From Nitrospinota bacterium (lineage in GTDB: Bacteria; Tectomicrobia; Entotheonellia; J063), in contig RFHZ01000200.1 in the NCBI GenBank assembly GCA_003696125.1, positions 1 to 5,315 on the forward strand: a stretch of 5,315 nucleotides of DNA. Direction: 5' to 3'. Below are positions 523 to 5,315 of this stretch, piece after piece. The notes beneath the pieces are model-generated. The model made no database searches, was not told the origin of the DNA, and saw nothing but the letters and a program-made list of their open reading frames with translations. The translations under genes were made by a program, and so were the position numbers. Each line of letters starts with the position of its first letter. Within the stretch, counting starts at the first letter, position 1.

Positions 523-1704
523 CTACACAATTCCCCGTCGTTGGAATGCGGCAATCTCTTCTTCACTGTATCCGAGTCCGCCGTACACCTCCTGGTTGTG
601 CTCGCCGATGGCTGGTGGAACGCTGCGGATCGTTCCCGGGGTCCGGGAAAACTTGATCGGCATGCCGGGAAGCGGGACCTTTCCCAGGCGGGGATGCTCG
701 ACCTCGATGAGCATCTGCCGGGCCTGAAACTGGGGGTGCCGGACCACCTGGGGGATGTCCAGCACCGGTGTACAGGGAACAGAGAGTTCCTCGAGTATGC
801 GTACCACTTCGGCCACGCTCTGCTCCTTGATCCAGTCCCCGACCAGGCTATCGATCACCTCTCGTTGCTGCACACGCGCCATGGGGGTGTTGAAGCGGGG
901 ATCATCGATCAGCTCTTCCCGCTGCATGGCACGTAACAGGTTGTTCCACTGCCCGTTGGTGGTGGCAACCAGGAAGACGTACCCATCACGGGCCGGATAG
1001 GCGTTTGCCGGGGAACAGAAACGCTCCCGGTTTCCCACCCGGGCCGGCTCCTGGTTCAACAGCAGGTACTCCAGGGGATAGGTCCTGAGCAGTGAGGTGA
1101 CCACATCGAAGAGGGCCACATCGACCACCTGTCCCTCCCCGGTAGCCTGCCGATGATAGAGCGCTCCCAGGGTTCCCAATGCCGCATGGACGGCTGTGGT
1201 ATAATCGACGATAAAGGTACCGACCAGGGTGGGAGGGCCATCAGGCCAGCCGGTCATGTGCATCAACCCTCCCATGGCCTGGGCGATGAAGTCAAAGCAG
1301 GGTTTTTGCGCATACGGTCCTTCCTGGCCAAAGCCGGAGATGGAGACGAGGATGATATCTGATCGCAAGGCCTTGAGGCGTTCGTACCCGAATCCGATCC
1401 GCTCCAGGACCCCAGGACGAAAGTTCTCCACCACCACATCACACCGCTGCACCAGTCGGGCCAAAATCTCCTTCCCTTCTGGCGTGCGCAGGTTGAGAGA
1501 GACACTCTTCTTGTTCCGGTTGAAGATCAGGTAGTAGAGACTCTCCCCCTGCCAAAAGGGGGACTCTCTCCGCCCGTGCTCTCCATCCAAAGGTTCGACT
1601 TTGATCACCTCTGCTCCCATATCGGCCAGCAGTTGGGTACAGTAAGGACCGGCGATAAAGCGGGAGAGATCGACGATTTTCACGCCGGAAAGAATGCTGT
1701 CCAT
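523..1704 (-). CDS. CaiB/BaiF family (class III) CoA-transferase
   Basis: This is a complete 393-residue protein, the usual length for class III CoA-transferases, which move CoA from an acyl-CoA to a carboxylic acid in the cytoplasm. The N-terminus LSGVKIVDLSRFIAGPYCTQ (5-24), then LADMGAEVIKVE (26-37), the block VVENFRPGVLERIGFGYERL (91-110) and ISGFGQEGP (122-130) are typical of the family. Asp167 in GTFIVDYTTA matches the position of the catalytic aspartate that forms the acyl-anhydride intermediate. The C-terminal half carries the expected GDGYVF-like segment (ARDGYVFLVA, 238-247) and VPCTPVLDIPQVVRHPQFQAR (309-329). ATG at 1704 is chosen because it places the first conserved block where relatives have it. 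The best Shine-Dalgarno, GAGGAG at 1723-1718, is 13 bases away, longer than ideal. It is the first gene of a leftward unit. The substrate is unknown; the family includes formyl-, carnitine-, succinyl- and bile acid-CoA transferases. Confidence 0.95.
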   Translation of the reverse strand: MDSILSGVKIVDLSRFIAGPYCTQLLADMGAEVIKVEPLDGEHGRRESPFWQGESLYYLIFNRNKKSVSLNLRTPEGKEILARLVQRCDVVVENFRPGVLERIGFGYERLKALRSDIILVSISGFGQEGPYAQKPCFDFIAQAMGGLMHMTGWPDGPPTLVGTFIVDYTTAVHAALGTLGALYHRQATGEGQVVDVALFDVVTSLLRTYPLEYLLLNQEPARVGNRERFCSPANAYPARDGYVFLVATTNGQWNNLLRAMQREELIDDPRFNTPMARVQQREVIDSLVGDWIKEQSVAEVVRILEELSVPCTPVLDIPQVVRHPQFQARQMLIEVEHPRLGKVPLPGMPIKFSRTPGTIRSVPPAIGEHNQEVYGGLGYSEEEIAAFQRRGIV

Positions 1705-1954: not shown

Positions 1955-2013
1955 ACGCGATAATCCAGGGTTATACTCTCAAGAGGTTATTCTTTCTAAA
2001 GGAGGGAGGAACC

Positions 2014-3687
2014 ATGTATACACTCGACGTCTTAGACCCGGTTGCTCCCCAGCAAGGGGATATCACGGCGTTGCCGCTGGCCCCACGACCGGCCTCACTG
2101 GCAGGAAAGACGCTGGGACTCTTGTGGAATGGGAAGGCGAATGGGGATAAGGCCTTAAGACGGGCCGGTGAACTGGTCCAAAAGCGGGTACCTGATGTTA
2201 CGGTAAAGTTCTACAGCGGGGCCCTTCCCTGCCCGGATCGCCTCATGGAGCAGGTCAAGGCGGAAGCAGATGCGGTCATCGCCTGCACGGCGGACTGAGG
2301 GTCGTGCACGTCGTGGCTTGTCCACGACATGATTGAGCTGGAAAAGGCCGGTATCCCGACCGTGGCCATCCTCTCCCACGGTTTCGAGCATGATGCCGAA
2401 GCCACGGCCAAAGCCTTTGGTATGCCCGGCATCCGGTACGCAGTGGTGCCCAAGGTGTACAACAACATCAGCGAGGCAGAGGTCATCGCGCAGACCGATC
2501 CGGTGGTTGATGACCTGATCAAGCTTTTGACCACCCCGGCAACGAGTGCAGAGACCATCTCACAAGAGGTCAAACGGGCCGGTCTGGAAACCTTTTCCGG
2601 TACCGACCAGTTTGCGGCGTGGGAAGCGTTTAACGAAACCTTCCTTGAGCGAGACTGGGGAGACGGTTTCCCGCTCATTCCTCCTACACCGGCTCGAGTG
2701 GAAGCGATGCTGCAAGGGACGACTCGTGATCCGCTCGATGTCGTATGCATGCTCCCCCCAGGCAACGGTGTGGCCACAGTAGAGAAGATCGCCATCAACT
2801 GTGTCATGGCCGGCTGCCGTCCAGCACATCTCCCTATCATCATGGCAGCGGCCCGGGCCATTGCCAGGATGGAGCGACGGGCGGTGCGTGGTTTCCTGAT
2901 GTCTACCAGTGCCCATGCCCCCCTGATGGTCATCAACGGCCCCATCACCAGGGAATTAGGGATCAACTCTGGTCGCTGTACCCTGGGACCGGGCAAGATG
3001 TCTCGGGTTAACGTGGTTCTCGGTCGTGCCCTGGTTCTTACCCTGAAGAATGTGGGACACTGGTATCCCGGGATCATGGACATGGATACCATCGGCACGG
3101 CACGGAAATTCAGTATGTGTGTGGCAGAGAACGAAGAGCACAGCCCCTGGGAACCGCTCCATGTGGAGCTCGGCTTCCCCCCTGAAGCCAGTACAGTGAC
3201 CATCTTCAGTACCGGTGGGGATAAGGATGTGGCCGACCAGGGGAATACCACGGCAGAAGGACTGCTACGCACCATCGCCTACTGTTGTATCTGGGGTGGG
3301 GCCGGCTACATCGCCAGCCTGGCTGGAGAATACGACGATACACCACAGGGGGCAACCCTGGTCTTCATCCCCCCGGCCCATGCCCGCCCCATGGCCCGGG
3401 ATGGCTTCAGCAAGAAGGCGGTGAAAGACTTCATCCATGCCCATGCCAGAGCCCCGGTGCGCCACCTGATCAACAGCTTCAACGTGCCGGAAAAGGTCCG
3501 TGTGCAGTGGCAATGGCTCTATCGCCTCTCCCCAGAGGAGCAGGAACGGATGCTGCTCCCGGTTCAGGAGACCGCACAACGCTACTTCATCGTCTGCGTC
3601 GGTGCACCGGATAGAGGAAAGGATCTCGTCTTCCCGAGCGGGTCCCCGTCCATCGAGGAGATCACCGATCGTGCACCACTCGGGTAG
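2014..3687 (+). CDS. UGSC-family selenoprotein (Sec95), fused two-domain form
   Basis: Read from ATG at 2014 (AAGGAGG eight bases upstream) to TAG at 3687, with TGA 2296-2298 as selenocysteine, this gives 557 residues. Residues about 27-175 form the UGSC domain: GKTLGLLWNGKANGD (31-45), then Cys91-TAD-Sec95-GSC98-TSWLVHDMIELEKAGIPTVAI. Sec95 and Cys98 make a UxxC redox pair, with Cys91 close by. The Sec-G-S-C...E-x-x-GIP pattern recalls the Sec site of GrdB-type glycine/betaine reductases (from memory). A second domain runs from GDGFPLIPPTPARVEAML (216-233) to the end, with LPPGNGVATVEKIAINCVMA (247-266), INGPITRELGINSG (307-320) and AENEEHSPWEPLHVELGF (371-388). I recall these blocks from uncharacterised proteins that accompany UGSC domains. 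There is no signal peptide or membrane segment, so it is probably cytoplasmic. Function is unknown; a selenol-based redox reaction is likely. The frame is identical on both sides of the TGA and conserved sequence crosses it, which argues against a pseudogene. Confidence 0.93.
2299..2328 (+). promoter_or_regulatory. Bacterial SECIS element (selenocysteine insertion hairpin)
   Basis: Directly after the UGA, GTCGTGG (2310-2316) pairs perfectly with CCACGAC (2322-2328) around the five-base loop CTTGT. The loop starts 18 bases after the UGA, within the distance known for bacterial SECIS elements that bind SelB. There is a G in the loop, and if the last G-C pair opens, G becomes the first loop base, as in the bacterial consensus. 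TCGTG occurs twice (2302-2306 and 2311-2315), so a weaker alternative register with a larger loop exists. The hairpin lies within the coding sequence and encodes part of TSWLVHD. Confidence 0.8.
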
Positions 3688-3836: not shown

Positions 3837-4739
3837 GTGAAAATCGGTTGGATCGGTCTGGGAAACATGGGAAAACCAATGGCAAAGCATGTCCAGGAGG
3901 CAGGATACGAGTTTGCCGTGCACGACCTGCGTCGCAACGTGGCTGCCGACATGCTGGAGGCAGGGGCGCATTGGGCCGAATCTCCGGCTGAGGTCGCAGA
4001 GGGAAAAGACATCGTCTTTACCTGCCTCCCCATGCCCGAGGATGTGGCCTCGGTCGCCCTGGGTCCGCGAGGCATCCTGGAAGGATTGCCCCCTCACGGG
4101 ATATTCATCGACATGTCTACCAACTCCCTGTCCATGATCAAGCACTTACACGCCGCCTTTGCCGATAAGGGGCGTCGCATGCTAGATGCACCGGTTAGCG
4201 GAGGAGTGCAGGGGGCCATCAGCCGTGATCTGGTGGTGATGGCCAGTGGTGATGCGGAGACCTACCAGCAGGTCAAACCGGTTCTCGATGCCATCGGAGA
4301 TAAGGTCATCTACTGCGGCCCTATCGGAAACGGTACCATCTGCAAGCTCTGCCATAACCTGATGACCGCCGGCATCTACCAGGTCCTTGCCGAAATCCTG
4401 ACCATGGGGGTCAAAGCCGGGGTAGACGTGGCCACCCTGGCCGACGCCATGTCGAAGGGAGCCACAGGCAAGCAACCTCCCCTGGCCAGATGGTGGGATA
4501 CCACCTTCAAAGGGAAATTTGAAGGGACCCCCATGAGCTTTTATCTGGAGCTGATGCGGAAGGATGTCCGGCTGGCCTGCGAACTGGGCCGGGAGGTCAA
4601 TGTCCCCATGGAGATCGCCAACATCGTCGAGCAACGCTTCATCACCGCCATGAACCGGGGATGGGGTCGGATGAACTCTAACGCCGCCATCCTCCTGCAG
4701 GAGGAACGGGCCGGTGTCAAGCTGCGTATCAGAGAGTGA
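3837..4739 (+). CDS. 3-hydroxyisobutyrate dehydrogenase-family (beta-hydroxyacid dehydrogenase) oxidoreductase
   Basis: This is a complete 300-residue protein, normal for the family. It starts with GTG at 3837, with GGAGG (3827-3831) five bases upstream, placing the Rossmann motif at the very N-terminus as expected. GLGNMG (7-12) in IGLGNMGKPMAKHV is the dinucleotide-binding loop. Asp30, at the end of the second strand (AVHDLRR), suggests NAD rather than NADP. DAPVSGG (117-123) is the substrate-binding signature, and Lys170 in GNGTICKLCHN, with Asn174, matches the catalytic lysine region. LMRKDVRLA (239-247) is the conserved helical-domain motif. Relatives reversibly oxidise 3-hydroxy acids such as 3-hydroxyisobutyrate, tartronate semialdehyde or hydroxybutyrate; the exact substrate cannot be told. 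It lies 149 bases after the selenoprotein on the same strand with no clear promoter of its own, so co-transcription is likely and a shared pathway plausible. Confidence 0.93.
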   Translation: MKIGWIGLGNMGKPMAKHVQEAGYEFAVHDLRRNVAADMLEAGAHWAESPAEVAEGKDIVFTCLPMPEDVASVALGPRGILEGLPPHGIFIDMSTNSLSMIKHLHAAFADKGRRMLDAPVSGGVQGAISRDLVVMASGDAETYQQVKPVLDAIGDKVIYCGPIGNGTICKLCHNLMTAGIYQVLAEILTMGVKAGVDVATLADAMSKGATGKQPPLARWWDTTFKGKFEGTPMSFYLELMRKDVRLACELGREVNVPMEIANIVEQRFITAMNRGWGRMNSNAAILLQEERAGVKLRIRE

Positions 4740-4978: not shown

Positions 4979-5007
4979 CGCATAATGAACGCAAGAGCGT
5001 TATTGCG
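4979..5007 (+). promoter_or_regulatory. Imperfect hairpin enclosing the start codon of the TubC-repeat gene
   Basis: AACGC (4988-4992) pairs with GCGTT (4997-5001) around the loop AAGA. The stem can continue with AAT (4984-4986) to ATT (5002-5004) and CGC (4979-4981) to GCG (5005-5007), leaving G4987 and A4982-T4983 bulged. The start codon ATG (4985-4987) is therefore inside the stem. The nearest strong Shine-Dalgarno, AAGGAGG at 4963-4969, is 15 bases away, so translation start may depend on folding. Confidence 0.35.
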
Positions 5008-5315
5008 TGAGTTATGGGAACAAGGGGTATTTGTGGCCTTGGGCCGAAAACAACAGTTGTGCTGTAGCCTCAAGATTCCCAAGAGCGAGGCGGAAAAGGA
5101 GGCGCTTCAGCAACTGCTCCGGCAAGAGCGGGAAGCCCTGGTCGCCGTGCTGCAGGAAGAGGCAGAGCGGCAACGTACCGCCTTAGAGCTCTTCCTCTTC
5201 CTTTTGGAAAAAGGGGTGATTCTTTCCAACAACGGGGAAAAGATCCAATGCCGGGCACCAGAGGGGAGCATCACGGCCATACTCTGGGAAGTCATGCGCG
5301 AGTATAAGAGAGAAC
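4985..5315 (+). CDS. Protein with two TubC N-terminal docking-like repeats, 3' part missing
   Basis: The first 110 residues are present and the gene runs off the right edge. Two similar units are visible. Unit 1 (about 4-56) is RALLRELWEQGVFVALG followed by a charged helix ending ALVAVLQ. Unit 2 (about 66-110) is ALELFLFLLEKGVILSNNGEK, then IQCRAPEGSITAILW and a final basic helix. Unit 2 closely fits the TubC docking-domain pattern: helix, GV, short beta hairpin, RAP-x-G, helix ending in a K/R-E cluster. These small domains mediate protein-protein docking in peptide/polyketide synthetases and, as I recall, also occur at the front of plasmid and phage proteins such as primases. A Glu/Gln-rich helix (34-65) joins the units. 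ATG 4985 is the only plausible start: the frame has a stop at 4898 and no start codon between. The function of the whole protein is unknown. Confidence 0.65.
   Translation, partial: MNARALLRELWEQGVFVALGRKQQLCCSLKIPKSEAEKEALQQLLRQEREALVAVLQEEAERQRTALELFLFLLEKGVILSNNGEKIQCRAPEGSITAILWEVMREYKRE

Follow-up and report, generated by a model that had tools for sequence, protein, structure and literature searches.

The 5,315-nt stretch of DNA analysed here (the window) contains, between positions 2014 and 3687, what is almost certainly one gene coding for one protein, with UGA 2296 decoded as selenocysteine (Sec). The predicted product joins a UGSC domain to a second conserved domain, and its likeliest function, judged from its relatives and their neighbours, would be that of a two-part reductase linked to thioredoxin and acting on small organic acids or amines. 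The finding itself is not new, since the UGSC family and this kind of fusion (UGSC/Unknown_1) are already present in the 2008 GOS survey (PLoS Genet 2008, PMC2398784, Fig. S1A), in which the family has 255 sequences; few predicted selenoproteins of bacteria are more abundant in metagenomes from aquatic habitats. In the UGSC passage of a 2026 review it is still counted among the families with largely uncharacterised functions. Our analysis adds a putative kinship to the Sec subunits GrdB and PrdB, a neighbourhood of thioredoxin genes and the presence of Sec in all UGSC genes of five genomes. The features that define the gene are:

2014 to 3687, forward strand: whole gene of the 557-aa selenoprotein, with TGA 2296 as its Sec codon (translation, family matches, homologues)
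1998 to 2009, forward strand: Shine-Dalgarno-like run AAAGGAGGGAGG for ATG 2014 (read from the sequence by eye)
2296 to 2307, forward strand: U-G-S-C motif, Sec95-Gly96-Ser97-Cys98, with TGA 2296-2298 (translation, homologue alignment)

Translated with TGA as a residue, the sequence from ATG 2014 through TGA 2296-2298 to TAG 3685-3687 forms a single frame of 557 aa whose lone TGA is codon 95, and re-translation gave the context CTAD-U-GSC-TSWLVHDMIELEKAGIP, both exactly as an earlier note on this DNA had described them. That note had also located the only ribosome site at 2014, in agreement with our reading by eye: the run AAAGGAGGGAGG is strong, no Shine-Dalgarno run was seen upstream of ATG 2329, and positions 2299-2328 hold no in-frame ATG, GTG or TTG. 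The stretch from the TGA to ATG 2329 is probably translated, because its residues are conserved (UGSCTSWLVHD in the window, UGSCTSWMIHD in the Dehalococcoidia homologue L030). The further claim that gene callers split such genes has an example in a public record, where annotation hides a UGSC gene of the Paracoccus ferrooxidans plasmid pFER4 as two 'hypothetical' CDS, the first of which stops at the TGA (L132, 5914-6483 and 10886-12661 for the UGSC gene and for the selB that lies 4.4 kb off on the same plasmid).

Members of the family with Sec or Cys aligned at residue 95, for which the earlier note had proposed to look, were found. Among 38 distinct homologues with either residue in this column, a count that excludes L062 as an out-of-frame artefact, it holds TGA in 30 and Cys in eight, the latter being L031 and seven plasmid homologues. 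An in-frame UGA aligned with Cys in homologues, by which bacterial selenoproteins are recognised, is found here together with the family's own Sec (or Cys)-Gly-Ser-Cys motif, as UGSC at residues 95-98. L030, 65% identical to the window protein, and the Chloroflexi homologue L033 have Sec at the motif, and the Streptosporangiales (actinobacterial) L031, 44% identical over the full fused length, reads CGSC. Furthermore, the window's own genome contains four UGSC genes: those on C512 and C626 are fused, those on C402 and C454 have the second domain in a neighbouring gene, and each has one TGA at the same place. The TGA is neither chance nor a sequencing error, because it is shared by L030, the fused paralogue C626 and the split paralogues C402 and C454. 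In the five genomes of the class, TGA is present in every motif-covering UGSC gene, with four to eight genes per genome. The metagenome-assembled genome that holds the window is in 990 contigs, and its contamination is estimated at 8%; the pattern is nevertheless the same in the related genomes, of which two are single contigs. One UGSC gene (L058/L062, G001:C6:86435-86949) has an apparent frameshift right after the motif, which may reflect error or decay. In viral contigs no relative was found.

The genome also carries the machinery for Sec insertion. selB (386 bits) and a tRNA-Sec with anticodon TCA were found, as were selA, split over two contig ends, and a partial selD at a contig end (L029/L015, G000:C684:3-299), which completes the set of selA, selB, selC and selD named in the earlier note and contradicts its refuting case of a genome lacking selB and selC. 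This selD has a TGA within its own reading frame, which is to be expected if its product contains Sec.

Comparison of the Sec genes additionally points to a conserved RNA structure downstream of the TGA:

2310 to 2328, forward strand: apical hairpin resembling a bacterial SECIS, with loop CUUGU at 2317-2321 between the arms 2310-2316 and 2322-2328 (covariation in Sec genes)

This hairpin, 14-33 nt after the TGA, provides the stem-loop with a G in its small loop that is expected shortly after a Sec-coding UGA. When the 51 nt from the TGA of the 38 genes were compared with 300 synonymous-codon shuffles each, the 30 Sec genes folded more stably (mean z -1.06, Fisher combined p 3.6e-6), a p value that is indicative only because the genes are related and not independent, and the eight Cys genes gave a mean z of +0.16 (p 0.70). 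Covariation is the better test of the hairpin than the folding p value. Across 26 Sec genes, 82.5% of the cells of a nine-pair stem were paired and 22 cells showed compensatory changes on both sides, against 9.7 in shuffles (0 of 500 reached this value); at stem columns 21/27, both third codon positions, G-C and C-G occurred 13 times each with zero mismatches, and the eight Cys genes had no covariation excess. The window sequence alone, over 56 nt around and after the TGA, folded no better than shuffles (z -0.6), so that only the family comparison is informative here, and an Rfam scan of the window gave no match. The loop begins with G-U in most Sec genes; in the fused branch, which includes the window, it reads CUUGU, AUGUG or UGA, with a G still present. 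In the window's own branch this G stands at the fourth position, versus the first in most of the family, which we counted as a point against the overall explanation proposed below.

These data bear on the possibility that the UGA is a true stop, in which case the window would encode a 94-residue fragment and a separate 452-residue protein from ATG 2329, or else a decaying pseudogene. Standard gene calling yields precisely this arrangement and split genes for both domains do occur elsewhere; those splits, however, lie at the boundary of the domains (about residue 185) rather than at the UGA. This codon is moreover conserved across phyla and replaced by Cys in others, conserved residues follow it directly with no ribosome site before 2329, and a covarying hairpin lies downstream, all of which makes termination at this codon extremely improbable.

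Read through as a single selenoprotein, the gene would encode two domains:

2014 to 2568, forward strand: UGSC domain covering residues 1-185, PF24696 matching 5-173, with a predicted flavodoxin/Rossmann-like alpha/beta fold of five parallel strands (Pfam, NCBIfam, model)
2596 to 3684, forward strand: C-terminal domain, residues about 195-557, 'Unknown_1' by description, with motifs DG-P---T and N--MAGC-P (locus comparison)

The assignment to UGSC in the earlier note holds for the N-terminal domain, which matches PF24696 with 141.1 bits (model positions 1-171 of 172; Pfam gathering cut-off 25 bits). NF041046 gave 119.5 bits over the full model, slightly below the NCBI equivalog cut-off of 125 bits, and by its sequence scores the predicted protein is a UGSC member by Pfam and a marginal one by NCBIfam. 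The C-terminal domain had no Pfam, NCBIfam or PDB match, and its model, built from a four-sequence input, gave no usable fold (pLDDT 32). In the five genomes of the class this domain is fused to, or lies near, almost every UGSC gene, the loosest cases being a pair separated by about 1.7 kb and a gene at the end of a contig. On haloarchaeal, actinobacterial and proteobacterial plasmids the two domains are likewise encoded side by side, in both orders. Comparison of these loci shows that the predicted window product combines in one chain two subunits for which other loci have adjacent separate genes. Two C-terminal-domain genes without a nearby UGSC match (orphans) were also seen, at G002:C1:270834-271643 and G003:C1:2482854-2483681 (L078, L077).

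In the model of the UGSC domain (residues 26-185, pLDDT mostly 55-90), five strands and the helices between them alternate, and Sec95 is placed at the start of the helix that follows the third strand. The predicted fold appears flavodoxin/Rossmann-like rather than the thioredoxin fold guessed in 2008. Foldseek/VIA-align searches with this domain returned many generic flavodoxin/Rossmann matches and no family-level answer, and phmmer and profile searches of PDB sequences found no meaningful relative; a Cap2 match to residues 52-102 (E 0.009) was weak and judged to be chance. This model bears on the idea that UGSC is a thioredoxin-fold thiol/selenol oxidoreductase that reduces peroxides or disulfides in proteins, the C-terminal domain having an accessory role. 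Like thioredoxin (PF00085), with its CxxC, the domain would carry its UxxC motif at a helix start, and the UGSC passages of the 2008 survey call the family 'likely' Trx-like (PMC2398784). In the model, however, the strand arrangement differs from that of thioredoxin, with five parallel strands in alpha/beta alternation, profile similarity is confined to the four-residue motif, and the gene neighbours are mostly enzymes and transporters of organic-acid catabolism rather than oxidative-stress genes, which leaves a thioredoxin-type oxidoreductase quite unlikely.

A different relationship was suggested by hhalign, where the profile of 35 UGSC domains scored 44.3 (Prob 86.5) against that of 17 domains of GrdB/PrdB, a similarity and not a proof of common descent. 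The alignment places Sec on Sec and continues through the following helix and a G-I-P strand, and control scores were at most 21.1 in 200 column-permuted and 15.9 in reversed comparisons; with the motif masked, the score was still 32.9, versus at most 20.7 in controls. Because the profile score lies far above the controls, we read the UGSC domain as a probable distant relative of the Sec subunits GrdB and PrdB, not as a member of their family. PF07355 did not match the window protein up to E 10. The window's relatives also have GrdB genes and short PrdB-like genes with Sec, in which the PF07355 (GRDB) matches stop just before the in-frame TGA (GrdB L097, L098 and L102; PrdB-like L101 and L104), and the PF07355 model therefore seems to miss the Sec part. 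Close kinship of UGSC to thioredoxin (15.8) or to Asp/Glu racemase (20.7) was rejected, both scores being at control level with profiles of few sequences. Profile comparison likewise detected no similarity of the C-terminal domain to GrdE or to the GrdB N-terminal region and ruled it out as a relative of either; since the domain is unlike both, the window protein is probably not simply a Grd-type complex. In the papers examined that name both UGSC and GrdB/PrdB, the UGSC passages do not mention a link between them.

The gene neighbourhood provides a further line of comparison. Two neighbours in the window were assigned by family match and serve as context only:

3837 to 4739, forward strand: 3-hydroxyisobutyrate dehydrogenase-like NAD-binding enzyme
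523 to 1704, reverse strand: CaiB/family III CoA-transferase, divergent

A 3-hydroxyisobutyrate dehydrogenase-like gene also lies near a fused gene of a related genome (L118, G004 C166), and CoA-transferase genes are close to several homologues. An ORF at 4985-5314 of the window is truncated where the contig stops, and its end is similar to the TubC N-terminal docking domain (25.8 bits, cut-off 26). Of the named records that were examined, about a third have thioredoxin or thioredoxin reductase neighbours: the gene order is trxB-trxA-U1-UGSC in Arthrobacter, trxB adjoins UGSC in Roseovarius and the UGSC pair in Variovorax SRS16, a TrxB-like gene lies beside the pair in Variovorax EBFNA2 and Haloterrigena, and in L031 a thioredoxin gene is directly 3' of the Cys fusion. 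No thioredoxin gene was found beside the gene in the window, or near most of the UGSC genes in relatives from its class. The other UGSC neighbours include family III CoA-transferases, TctC/TRAP/TAXI uptake proteins, LysR regulators, PEP-mutase/isocitrate-lyase-like enzymes, 3-hydroxyisobutyrate dehydrogenase-like enzymes and CoA ester lyases, and by family assignment they appear typical of small-organic-acid catabolic pathways. The combination of thioredoxin and catabolic neighbours suggests a thioredoxin-linked reductase whose substrates would differ among paralogues.

The mechanism that we propose begins with UGA 2296 being read as Sec with the help of the downstream hairpin, SelB and tRNA-Sec. 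Sec95-x-x-Cys98, at the helix start of the flavodoxin-like alpha/beta UGSC domain, would work with the 'Unknown_1' subunit as partner: Sec95 would attack the substrate, a small organic carboxylate, amine or keto acid held between both domains, a substrate bond would be cleaved reductively, and the resulting Sec-Cys98 selenenylsulfide would be re-reduced by thioredoxin/thioredoxin reductase, in analogy to GrdB and PrdB, which carry the Sec in glycine reductase and D-proline reductase. Taken as a whole, from Sec decoding to two-part reductase chemistry, we consider this explanation somewhat more probable than its negation.

The earlier note had taken Sec95 to be the active-site residue. Comparison of the sequences supports this well in the branches with Sec or Cys; against it stand fused homologues in Sporomusa and Vibrio, beside aconitase-X and DUF126, which read D-M-G-T-S where U-G-S-C stands and have neither Sec nor Cys:

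7713 to 9437 of L094, Sporomusa termitida: fused homologue with D-M-G-T-S, next to aconitase-X/DUF126
5749 to 7434 of L129, Vibrio europaeus: fused homologue with D-M-G-T-S, next to aconitase-X/DUF126

The existence of this branch implies that the UGSC scaffold can act somehow without the redox pair. UGSC could accordingly be a non-redox lyase, isomerase or racemase, with Sec or Cys as nucleophile or acid/base and no net reduction, and the retention of both domains in the aconitase-X-linked homologues fits this, as do the CoA-transferases, PEP mutase/isocitrate lyase-like enzymes and CoA ester lyases among the neighbours. The second Cys of the motif is, however, conserved together with Sec, thioredoxin genes are adjacent in several lineages and the kinship to GrdB/PrdB points to reduction, so that non-redox chemistry seems rather unlikely, if a serious alternative. 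More broadly, and tentatively, UGSC-Unknown_1 may constitute a hitherto overlooked branch among those selenium-dependent reductases that are kin to glycine and proline reductase. Its enzymes, two-subunit or fused, would have an unrelated domain as partner and be supplied by thioredoxin, one genome would encode several Sec paralogues for different organic acids or amines, and plasmids would have carried Cys versions into haloarchaea and aerobes.

With the family and its fusion already known, the interest of the window gene comes from a testable functional link: through GrdB/PrdB, thioredoxin and Cys versions in culturable bacteria and haloarchaea, the UGSC family gains a reaction type that can be tested. 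The window protein shares the whole N-terminal domain and U-G-S-C with the family as defined by PF24696 and NF041046 and differs from it by the fused second domain. The UGSC/Unknown_1 fusion of the 2008 survey (PMC2398784) has, in its published outline, the same architecture of UGSC plus a conserved domain, the second domain being matched by description only. GrdB/PrdB and UGSC both present Sec-x-x-Cys after a strand, followed by a helix, G-I-P and a strand, whereas UGSC lacks a direct PF07355 match and its partner domain is unrelated to GrdE or the GrdB N-terminus. Unlike GrdB/PrdB, UGSC also occurs on plasmids in haloarchaea, actinobacteria and proteobacteria.
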